Shown here in pieces: positions 54,272 through 57,119 of a stretch of 64,000 bases of DNA (the stretch's first letter is position 1; each line of letters starts with the position of its first letter). The notes under the pieces were generated by a model, which saw nothing but the letters and a program-made list of their open reading frames with translations, was not told the origin of the DNA and did not search any database. Origin of the DNA: Rhodospirillales bacterium (GTDB lineage: Bacteria; Pseudomonadota; Alphaproteobacteria; Rhodospirillales; Casp-alpha2); assembly GCA_023145215.1 (NCBI GenBank), contig JAGLED010000001.1:1-64000 (forward strand), written 5' to 3'. Position numbers and translations under genes: made by a program.

Positions 54272-55150
54272 TCAGTCCGCAGCGGCGGGGACGGCGTCCG
54301 GCCAGAATACATGAGCGGGCTGAATCGGTTTGCCCGCCTTGTGACGCTCGTCCGGCGGCATCACGTCCATGTTCGGCCACAACCCCGTTTCCAGGCATGC
54401 CGCATACCCTTCCGGCAGCTTGCGCGCGCGCATGGCACGGGCCGCGGCGGCATAGTCGTAGTCGAGACCGCAAACAGAAATTTCCAATCCGCCATCGACC
54501 GTATTAAGCAGCGCATACCAGACCCGCGGCGTTCCATCGTTGGCAGGCATACCGATGACACCCGCATTCAGCCACAAGCGGTCGCCAAGAATTTGCATGA
54601 ATGGCACGCCTGAATGTCCGCCGATCACCGCATCGACACCAAGCGCTTCCAGACTTTCGCGCTTGATAACGTCATCGGTTTTTTCGAACACGAAGTCATT
54701 GATAGAAGCGGCACTGCCATGCACGACCGCGAAGCGGCGGCGGCCAAGCTGAAATTCGACACGTCCCGGCAACTGCCTCATCCAGGCCCGGTGTTCTGGC
54801 GTCAGCCTGGCATTGGCATACGCATACCATTGCCGCGACATGACATCGCACTCGGTCCCCTCGTCGAAACCGCAGCCGCAATCGTCGGCTTCCGCACCGA
54901 AGCTTTCCTCGCAATTTCCCATCACGGTGGTGACGCCCCAATCCATAACCGCATCCGTCGTCGCCGCCGGATCGCCGGCATAAGCGACGACGTCACCGGT
55001 GCAAATGATCCGCTCAGGTGGGATGCGGAGATGTCCGGCCTCAGCGATCATCGCTTCGGTCGCCTGCAGGTTGGAGTACGGCCCGCCGAACACCAGCACC
55101 GGACCGTCAAGCTTGCCGAGGTCGAGCGTCTTCACTTCAGTCATCGGCAT
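54272..55150 (-). CDS. Metallophosphoesterase-fold protein with altered metal site and Cys cluster
   Basis: 292 residues with the layout of calcineurin-like phosphoesterases, but key ligands are changed. The DxH strand reads VFGGPYSNLQA (22-30), so Asp and His are gone; GD at 52-53 is kept; GNH is GNC (78-80); H144 in VHGS and H179 in GGHSGVPF remain, while the last His of GHxH is lost. Between residues 80 and 101 are C80, C91, C93 and C101 (DDCGCGF), a possible metal or Fe-S site. The start abuts the radical SAM stop. Probably a family trait, not decay. Role unknown. Confidence 0.75.
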   Translation of the reverse strand: MPMTEVKTLDLGKLDGPVLVFGGPYSNLQATEAMIAEAGHLRIPPERIICTGDVVAYAGDPAATTDAVMDWGVTTVMGNCEESFGAEADDCGCGFDEGTECDVMSRQWYAYANARLTPEHRAWMRQLPGRVEFQLGRRRFAVVHGSAASINDFVFEKTDDVIKRESLEALGVDAVIGGHSGVPFMQILGDRLWLNAGVIGMPANDGTPRVWYALLNTVDGGLEISVCGLDYDYAAAARAMRARKLPEGYAACLETGLWPNMDVMPPDERHKAGKPIQPAHVFWPDAVPAAAD

Positions 55151-56098
55151 TCAATCCGGACTGCACGACGCGCCGCCGAGGACACAGAACTTGGCGCAAT
55201 GAGGATGATTGAGTTGCACGGATGTATTCGACTCTTGGAGCCTGCTGCCCAGCTCGAACGCCGGATCGTACGGCAGCAACGTACATGGCACGACCACCGG
55301 GCCGTCGGCCCCCTTTCTTTTCACGACCATGCGCGACGATGCGCACATCATCGTTTCCGGCTTGATCCCAAGGATGTCCCAGCAATGGACGGTGATTTCG
55401 GGGACATCGACATGGGCGTCCATTTCCGGGAACAGAACGAGTCGTCCCGGATTTTGCGCATCGATCGGAATGCTTTCGGCCGCAAAAAGACCGGCGTAAC
55501 CGGCGCGTCCGGTTGCCTCGTCCTCGTCCCAGCAGGTCCGACCGGCAACGGCAAGATTGAACCCGTTTGCAGCCAGCCAACGCAATCCTTCGACCATCGG
55601 CGGCCAGGTGTCCCTGCCGCGGATGTCCTCGTGGCCTTCGCGCGTGTAATGATCGACCGAGACGCGCACCGCCAGCGCCTCACCATAGGTTTCCTTGAGC
55701 ACCAAAAGTTTATCGCGCTTGTTCAGCAGGGGCTTCATCGCGTTGGTCAGGATGAGGACCCGGTATCCGCGCCCGAGGGCTTCCGTGATCATCCCGATGA
55801 TGTCCGGGTTCATGAACGGTTCGCCGCCGGTGAAGGCGATCTCCTCCACCTTCATGTCTTCGCGGTCGATCTCGTCGAGATAACCGCGCATTTCGTCGAG
55901 TGTGATATAGGCGAGCGCATCGTTCTTCGGCGACGAGTCCATATAGCAGTTGACGCAGGTGATGTTGCAGAGCGACCCGGTGTTGAACCACAGCGTCGTC
56001 AAGTGGGTCAGTGCGACTACGGCGCGTTGCTGCCCGTCGGCGGTAATATGCGGATCGCGGAACTTGCGCGGATCGAGCGCGCGGCTGGAATCGGGCAT
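55151..56098 (-). CDS. Radical SAM protein with extra C-terminal cysteines
   Basis: 315-residue partial TIM-barrel enzyme. The [4Fe-4S] SAM cluster ligands C44, C48 and C51 lie in LCNITCVNCYMD (C-x3-C-x2-C), and the SAM-binding GGEP is 91-94. Further cysteines C239, C252, C272 and the terminal group C301, C305, C312 (HCAKFCVLGGASC) could hold an auxiliary cluster in SPASM fashion. Its stop abuts the phosphoesterase-like start, so the two are one transcript and probably one pathway. No peptide precursor gene was found nearby. Divergent from the dioxygenase gene. Confidence 0.85.
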   Translation of the reverse strand: MPDSSRALDPRKFRDPHITADGQQRAVVALTHLTTLWFNTGSLCNITCVNCYMDSSPKNDALAYITLDEMRGYLDEIDREDMKVEEIAFTGGEPFMNPDIIGMITEALGRGYRVLILTNAMKPLLNKRDKLLVLKETYGEALAVRVSVDHYTREGHEDIRGRDTWPPMVEGLRWLAANGFNLAVAGRTCWDEDEATGRAGYAGLFAAESIPIDAQNPGRLVLFPEMDAHVDVPEITVHCWDILGIKPETMMCASSRMVVKRKGADGPVVVPCTLLPYDPAFELGSRLQESNTSVQLNHPHCAKFCVLGGASCSPD

Positions 56099-56246: not shown

Positions 56247-57119
56247 ATGAATTTCGACGTACGCCCCCTTTCGACGCATCTCGGCGCGGAAATCAGAGGC
56301 ATCGATCTCAACGACGGACTCGGCGACAACGTCGCCGGCGAACTGAAACAGATCTGGTGCGAAAACGGCGGCCTGATGGTGATCCGCGGCCAGGAGAACC
56401 TGACGACCGAAGCCCATATTGAATTCGGTGCGGCGCTCGGTCCGCTGTTCGGTGCGCCCGACCAGTCGCCGCTTCAAGATACGGTGAGCCGGTATATCCA
56501 CCCGAAGCACCCGGAAATATATCGTGTTTCCAATAAGCTAGATGAAAGCGGCGAACCGCTTGGTAGAAAAGGCGCGGGCACGTACTGGCATTCCGATGTC
56601 AGTTTCCGTGAAACGCCGGCCGGCGCGTCCGTGCTGCATGGGGTCGAAATCCCGCCCGTCGGCGGCGACACGATCTTCGCCAACATGACGAAGGCCTTCG
56701 AGGATCTCTCCGAGCCGATGAAGGACCTGCTCAGGCCGCTGCATGCCTGGCACGACTTCGAGATGGCGGCACGTACGCAATACGCAAAGCCGATTGTCGT
56801 CGAGGACGATATGTCCGGCGCCAACAAGGCCCTGCATCCGGTGGTCCGCACTCATGCAGACACAGGGAAAGAGAACCTTTACGTCAACCCGGGTTTCACA
56901 TCGCATCTGGATGGGTTCGACGCGGATGAAAGCCGCTGGATTTTGGAGCCCCTCTATCGGCACGCCACGCGCGCGGAGTACCTGTATCGCCACACCTGGC
57001 AGCCCCACGACGTCATCGTCTGGGATAACCGGTGCCTGATGCACTACGCGGTGATGGATTACGGTGATGCGCCCCGCTACATGGAGCGCACCACCTGTAT
57101 CGGCGAACGGCCGGTCTAG
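56247..57119 (+). CDS. TauD/TfdA-family Fe(II)/2-oxoglutarate dioxygenase
   Basis: 290 residues. The metal ligands H115 and D117 lie in TYWHSDVSFRE and distal H266 in NRCLMHYAV; R277 or R281 binds 2-oxoglutarate. The enzyme is complete. Family members hydroxylate taurine, alkylsulfates, 2,4-D or other small acids; the substrate is not shown. GGAGAGGAGG precedes the ATG. It ends nine bases before the convergent acyl-CoA dehydrogenase stop. Confidence 0.9.
   Translation: MNFDVRPLSTHLGAEIRGIDLNDGLGDNVAGELKQIWCENGGLMVIRGQENLTTEAHIEFGAALGPLFGAPDQSPLQDTVSRYIHPKHPEIYRVSNKLDESGEPLGRKGAGTYWHSDVSFRETPAGASVLHGVEIPPVGGDTIFANMTKAFEDLSEPMKDLLRPLHAWHDFEMAARTQYAKPIVVEDDMSGANKALHPVVRTHADTGKENLYVNPGFTSHLDGFDADESRWILEPLYRHATRAEYLYRHTWQPHDVIVWDNRCLMHYAVMDYGDAPRYMERTTCIGERPV

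Follow-up and report, generated by a model that had tools for sequence, protein, structure and literature searches.

In the available portion of PMC5478658, arsenic in seaweed is described as occurring mainly in the form of arsenosugars, and the bacterial genes assigned to their synthesis, as far as the text available from PMC8552651 goes, cover only the first steps, namely ArsM and ArsS. According to the same source, ArsS and ArsM act together in the opening steps in Synechocystis, and the accessible part of PMC12159101 states that a radical SAM enzyme adenosylates arsenic in arsenosugar synthesis. The corresponding part of PMC12608789 holds no gene-level information on arsenosugar synthesis, and in those of PMC9312934 and PMC13188914 the ArsS family, TIGR04167, appears only as a selenoprotein family, as does arsenite methyltransferase in PMC9312934. 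Arsenic chemistry has also been described for a protein of the phosphoesterase fold. In operons with the order arsR-orf1-acr3-arsM, the product Orf1 is about 40% identical to Car1, the arsenate reductase of Rufibacter tibetensis; Cys74 and Cys76 are reported as essential in Car1, and both are present in Orf1 (PMC12124457, in the excerpt available).

The analysis described here concerns a window of 64,000 nucleotides, by which the whole stretch of DNA analysed is meant, from a Rhodospirillales bacterium (contig JAGLED010000001.1), in which the gene of a radical SAM protein (RS) is followed by that of a calcineurin-like phosphoesterase-fold protein (MP). Judged from sequence comparisons, RS and MP probably both belong to an organoarsenic pathway of the arsenosugar type. 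By analogy, RS is fairly likely to form the C-As bond, and that MP is an arsenic(V) reductase may be given an even chance; the combined proposal, with RS as C-As bond former and MP as thiol-based arsenic(V) reductase of the same pathway, is likewise evenly balanced. The two directly abutting reading frames described in the first-pass annotation were recovered on the minus strand (Table 1), and the MP letters that it had listed (GGPY, GNC, VHGS, GGHS, DDCGCG and the cysteines C80, C91, C93 and C101) were read identically. With this layout, RS and MP are likely to be carried on one transcript.

Table 1. Features of the RS-MP gene pair, with positions counted from the first letter of the window
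Feature	Coordinates	Strand	Evidence or conservation
RS (315 aa), of the radical SAM type; putative ArsS-like enzyme of C-As bond formation	55151-56098	minus	Radical_SAM 62.5 bits
MP (292 aa), with calcineurin-like phosphoesterase fold; putative thiol-dependent arsenic(V) reductase	54272-55150	minus	Metallophos_2 46.1 bits
RS stop TGA abutting MP start ATG	55148-55153	minus	sequence
RS radical SAM motif CX3CX2C (C44, C48, C51)	55946-55969	minus	27/27; common to RS2 and ArsS
RS C239, C252, C272	55283-55384	minus	27/27; C252 and C272 also in ArsS, C239 only with RS2
RS C-terminal triplet C301, C305, C312	55163-55198	minus	27/27; aligned with ArsS and RS2
MP C80, replacing the catalytic His of GNH	54911-54913	minus	3rqz alignment; 16/20, V in 4
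MP C91-G-C93 and C101	54848-54880	minus	20/20; C91/C93 align with Cys74/Cys76 of Car1-like proteins

The arrangement recurs elsewhere. RS lies directly before MP in 22 of 80 related MP loci, the spacing ranging from -16 to +65 nt, and is at most 2.6 kb away in 4 further loci; RS was not found in the examined stretch of the other 54. In the 5.9 Mb genome G095, MP and RS share a single open frame (L137:8600-10700), with MP first and a linker of around 50 residues, for which a sequencing error remains a possible cause. The same genome carries a second RS near TIGR04282 and TIGR04283 genes (L138). These neighbourhood surveys were made with a simple ORF caller, which mislabels some genes in GC-rich DNA, and part of the genes were relabelled by tblastn. 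Opposite RS in the window lies a divergent TauD/TfdA dioxygenase gene (56247-57119). Eight of 149 loci contain its ORF cluster, which faces RS in L002-L007 and L124 and stands a few genes off in L138; it was set aside as a part of the system. The window neighbours, taken to be OmpA-like, ApaG, FolE and TrkH, were also set aside; their gene order is common to several related loci.

The AF2 model of MP (pLDDT 92.5) adopts the phosphoesterase fold and matches SapH-type phosphoesterases with a Z of 25.9 and an rmsd of 2.8 over 245 residues, SapH and two archaeal relatives being tied as the nearest structures (Z 25.6-25.9). In the alignment to 3rqz, G23 and Y25 stand in place of the site-1 ligands D and H, and G181 in place of the third, the second H of GHxH. 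The first-pass annotation had described a protein that lost its metal ligands, which holds for site 1 and for the catalytic His but not for site 2, where all four ligands (D53, N79, H144 and H179) are kept in 20 of 20 MPs; its view that the change is coordinated was borne out across the family. As read from these alignments, MP is a protein with a half-dismantled metal centre and a new cysteine triplet, not one whose centre is wholly lost. In the first homologue set (80 sequences kept of 479 relatives) the Cys group was conserved in 79-81 of 81, and because this set had been partly seeded with Cys motifs, conservation was rechecked in a set of 20 consisting of the window MP and 19 MPs found by profile. 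There the triplet held without exception, and C50 was present in 17 of the 20. One sequence, L078, was left out of one MP set, as its chosen frame contains a stop codon.

The best plasmid matches of MP outside its own family were phosphoesterases of ars operons (E 1e-25 to 1e-18). Those of Hymenobacter, Mucilaginibacter, Pedobacter and Pontibacter are among the matches that follow the best one, in Roseomonas, and further phosphoesterases with ars genes were found in Adhaeribacter, Paraclostridium, Rubrobacter and Flammeovirga, the Paraclostridium operon matching the order arsR-orf1-acr3-arsM given in the available text of PMC12124457. Among the eight ars-operon proteins, a CxC motif is located at 74/76 in five and at 75/77 in two, and is absent in Flammeovirga; the Mucilaginibacter and Pedobacter operons each encode a second phosphoesterase, and neither of these has it (0 of 2). 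With these relatives standing in for Car1, the ars-operon CxC aligns with C91/C93 in 7 of 7 MPs. At the same position CxC occurs in 2 of 10 other phosphoesterases, both cyanobacterial and both with no annotated ars gene within 3 kb. On cyanobacterial plasmids (L244:3001-4568 and L245:3001-4618) two phosphoesterase-fold genes stand in a row, the first with CEC or CDC where Car1 has its CxC and with GCW instead of GNH, and the second without most of the ligands.

A cluster, as suggested in the first-pass annotation, is conceivable for MP, but C91 and C93 align with the cysteines reported as essential in Car1, an arsenate reductase of the same fold, and a more specific role is thereby suggested. 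By profile, MP scored 277 against the ars-operon set (seven sequences) and 195 against ordinary phosphoesterases (five sequences). The tree did not place MP firmly: it stood apart from the Car1-like proteins at supports of 52/84 and 71/87, and one clade uniting MP with the ars-operon and cyanobacterial rows gave an AU p of 0.435 with three long-branch rows left out; both the MP/ars-operon alignment and the first tree lack one distant MP, L134. The CxC of MP could be convergent with that of the ars-operon proteins.

A different use of the same residues is conceivable, in which MP binds trivalent arsenical at a three-thiol As(III) site made up of C91, C93 and C101 and hands it to RS as substrate. 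The invariance of the three cysteines in all 20 sequences, the loss of the catalytic His and of site 1, the MP-RS protein encoded in a single frame and the shared arsenic context would all suit such a carrier. However, the CxC aligns with cysteines reported as essential for reduction in Car1 (PMC12124457, in the excerpt available), and invariant site-2 ligands would be needless for a pure thiol carrier. Delivery is thereby considered unlikely, and arsenic(V) reduction remains the preferred function for MP.

Turning to RS, a score of 56.9 bits against the ArsS model (TIGR04167), far below the cut-off of 300, rules it out as a plain ArsS member. By profile, RS matches ArsS only over residues 32-213 (E 1.9e-14), and for these two reasons RS is placed as an enzyme that would work like ArsS and not as a member of that family. 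RS2, a distant relative of RS, is related to it over the full length (E 8e-53). Eight aligned Cys columns are common to 12 RS, 8 RS2 and 9 ArsS rows, comprising CX3CX2C together with C252, C272, C301, C305 and C312. The six extra RS cysteines counted in the first-pass annotation are in fact seven, of which six are conserved in 27 of 27 sequences and the seventh, C189, in 14 of 27. For the peptide substrate that had also been suggested no evidence was found: in the profile searches RiPP maturases match RS across the radical SAM core only, on which grounds peptide maturation was rejected. The AF2 model of RS (pLDDT 81.5) nevertheless also matches peptide maturases such as SkfB and SuiB at low TM-scores of around 0.4-0.5, its best match being BlsE at 0.56.

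Among 289 Alphaproteobacteria, MP was found in 20 genomes, RS in 83 and both in 17 (P 9e-8, in a count that ignores phylogeny), the 83 including G116 with a match of 201 bits, comparable to that of RS2. The proposed link between the two genes is thus upheld, with RS in 17 of the 20 MP genomes besides the direct neighbourhood in 22 of the 80 loci. Strict pairing, for which the first-pass annotation had named RS without its partner in most genomes as the refutation, failed, with 66 of the 83 RS genomes lacking MP, and a strict two-gene system is ruled out by these counts. Arsenic(V) can be reduced by ArsC or glutathione in place of another reductase, and that most RS genomes do without MP agrees with a reductase whose place others of this kind can take. 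The same counts bear on a further possibility, in line with the new cofactor suggested in the first-pass annotation: the cysteines and site-2 residues of MP would bind a cofactor, iron-sulfur or another metal, and MP would serve RS as redox partner or maturation factor. Conserved cysteines next to retained metal ligands, and a radical SAM partner with further conserved cysteines, are compatible with it, but profile and domain model searches gave no iron-sulfur family match for MP, and an RS that mostly occurs without MP does not generally depend on it; this possibility is judged very improbable.

A second pattern emerged from the MP genomes whose locus does not contain RS. In 49 of these 54 loci (L066, L072, L075, L078 and L080 were left out), the genome carries RS or RS2 in 27 cases, ArsS in 20, both in none and neither in 2, an overlap of 0 against 11 expected (P 8e-12); in one of the 27, G326, the match is split in three pieces. 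ArsS (E 1e-30 or better) was detected in 2 of the 289 Alphaproteobacteria, both of them MP genomes without RS (2 of 3 such genomes).

The genes that accompany RS and MP point in the same direction as the proposed arsenosugar-type pathway. TIGR04282 and TIGR04283 carry the label "arsenosugar biosynthesis glycosyltransferases", which is an annotation. Of the 83 RS genomes among the 289 Alphaproteobacteria, 77 also have TIGR04282 (E 1e-20 or better) and 78 have TIGR04283 (at least 100 bits), with P ~1e-40 when phylogeny is ignored; five RS genomes lack both, and TIGR04282 is present without RS in 26 genomes. TIGR04283 (E 1e-25 or better) was found in 48 of the 49 MP genomes whose locus lacks RS and in 24 of the 26 whose locus has it, but its presence alone is not specific, because 27 of 53 background Gammaproteobacteria carry it too. 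Above the model cut-off the contrast is weaker (32 of 49 and 20 of 26 MP genomes, against 25 of 54 Gammaproteobacteria with the centre genome included), and this background is matched only in part, the 49 genomes being Alpha- and Gammaproteobacteria and a few others. In the genome of the window, which is 66% complete, TIGR04282, TIGR04283, ArsS and ArsM were not found; TIGR04283 is present in the genome of L002, its nearest relative found. At five alphaproteobacterial loci (L172, L173, L175, L177 and L179) the TIGR04282/TIGR04283 pair stands beside a different radical SAM gene, often with what is presumably a MoaB/Mog-like gene, and the pair may have a second setting there.

At related loci the genes near RS and MP encode TIGR04282, TIGR04283, an MTA-phosphorylase relative, an FAD oxidoreductase and a PhnD-like binding protein, the MTA-phosphorylase-like gene and a PhnD-type ABC transporter occurring at several loci; a further neighbour is a membrane protein that we take to be TVP38-like ("VTT domain" in the Roseomonas annotation). 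In one stretch (L232) ArsS, TIGR04282, TIGR04283, a symporter and MP occur together, and in another (L135) ArsS, phosphorylase, TIGR04283, MP and PhnD. Of the 54 MP loci without RS, 33 (for example L032 and L048) have a sodium/solute symporter gene of about 460 aa immediately before MP, and in L232 the symporter gene lies around 5 kb from the ArsS gene set.

The best plasmid match of MP (52%) was found in Roseomonas haemaphysalidis (L239, NZ_CP061178.1 50177-67025), in a run of TIGR04282, DUF547, radical SAM, an RS-like protein of 315 aa, PhnD, PhnE, ATPase and MP. A TIGR04283-type transferase lies some 5 kb beyond this run (165 bits, below the cut-off of 182), so that RS, MP and both transferases are located within about 13 kb of the plasmid. 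The other radical SAM protein of this run, with 459 aa and placed between DUF547 and RS, has TrsS as its best model (100 bits, under the cut-off of 490) and gave no tblastn match in the 80 MP loci.

Whether the element handled is arsenic has to be weighed against the possibility that RS, MP and the transferases form one pathway towards a related compound without arsenic, be it of another element or free of any metalloid; selenium and a phosphonate-like sugar are examples. ArsM was matched in only 14 of the 83 RS genomes (E 1e-40 or better, with at most eight candidates scored per genome); the PhnD-like protein passes the phosphate/phosphite/phosphonate model with 165.9 bits and gives 84.9 bits, below cut-off, with a putative selenate model; and acr3, arsC and arsH (one query each, E 1e-8) were found at none of the 80 MP loci, all of which would agree with a pathway other than arsenic. 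Nevertheless, ArsM-like genes occur at most 1.6 kb from RS or RS2 at four loci, as direct neighbours of RS in L183 and of RS2 in L166 and with one gene in between in L184 and L151 (163-203 bits against PRK11873, below the cut-off of 263), ArsS is exchanged for RS or RS2 in MP genomes, and MP has the Car1-like CxC; a pathway without arsenic is therefore rated as distinctly unlikely. RS is present in 14 of 18 ArsM genomes (P 1e-5, phylogeny ignored), and among the 80 MP loci one weak ArsM match was seen, in L052. The ArsM-family matches of G093, G194, G196, G208, G281 and G287 read through one in-frame TGA, perhaps a selenocysteine or simply the end of the gene.

Under the arsenosugar-type proposal, an arsenic oxyanion would be taken up by the PhnD-like or the sodium/solute transporter and held by MP in the old phosphate pocket at D53, N79, H144 and H179, where C91/C93 and C101 would reduce As(V) to As(III); arsenate, methylarsonate and dimethylarsinate are candidate substrates. 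Like ArsS, RS would then use SAM to attach the trivalent arsenical at the 5' carbon of adenosine, the MTA-phosphorylase-like enzyme would remove adenine, and TIGR04282 and TIGR04283 might pass the arsenic-ribose to an acceptor. It is conceivable, if doubtful, that MP and RS work as coupled enzymes, with the two fused in one lineage. MP would then reduce a pentavalent arsenical at its three cysteines, next to the one metal still bound, and hand the trivalent product directly to RS, which would represent a new radical SAM class and be the prevailing C-As bond maker in Alphaproteobacteria. In that case the synthesis of organoarsenic sugars would extend well outside cyanobacteria and algae.

The first-pass annotation had put the pair forward as an undescribed system. 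A pathway label, arsenosugar biosynthesis, does exist; RS and MP as its parts were not found in the literature searched, and no MP-type phosphoesterase turned up in arsenosugar work in these searches, which do not span the whole literature. The RS family, found in 83 of 289 Alphaproteobacteria with the same partner genes and in the place of ArsS, would provide a testable organoarsenic gene set in heterotrophic bacteria, and MP, if a reductase, would be a second case of the phosphoesterase fold turned toward arsenic redox chemistry.

In comparison with known systems, MP shares the fold and the site-2 ligands with the SapH-type Ap4A hydrolase and the YfcE metallophosphoesterases, but fails their DxH, GNH[DE] and GHxH motifs. 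The best NCBIfam match of RS is the Rv1681 family radical SAM protein (NF049973), at 81 bits and far under the cut-off of 380; in parallel, the Rv1680 SBP-like model weakly matches the PhnD-like neighbour (29.8 bits). In relation to ArsS, RS differs by its score below the model cut-off, by a profile match restricted to part of its length and by C239, which is absent from ArsS, whereas CX3CX2C, five further aligned cysteines and the neighbour genes are the same and the two are mutually exclusive in MP genomes. With respect to Car1/Orf1, the site-1 DxH and GHxH are kept in 8 of 8 ars-operon proteins, while MP has G23, Y25 and G181 at these places; MP has C101 and usually C80 in addition, and acr3, arsC and arsH were not found at its loci with one query each. 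The fold is nonetheless the same, MP being 31% identical to an ars-operon relative, the CxC stands at the position occupied in 7 of the 8 ars-operon proteins, and GNH is altered in both, to GNY in those seven and to GNC or GNV in MP.
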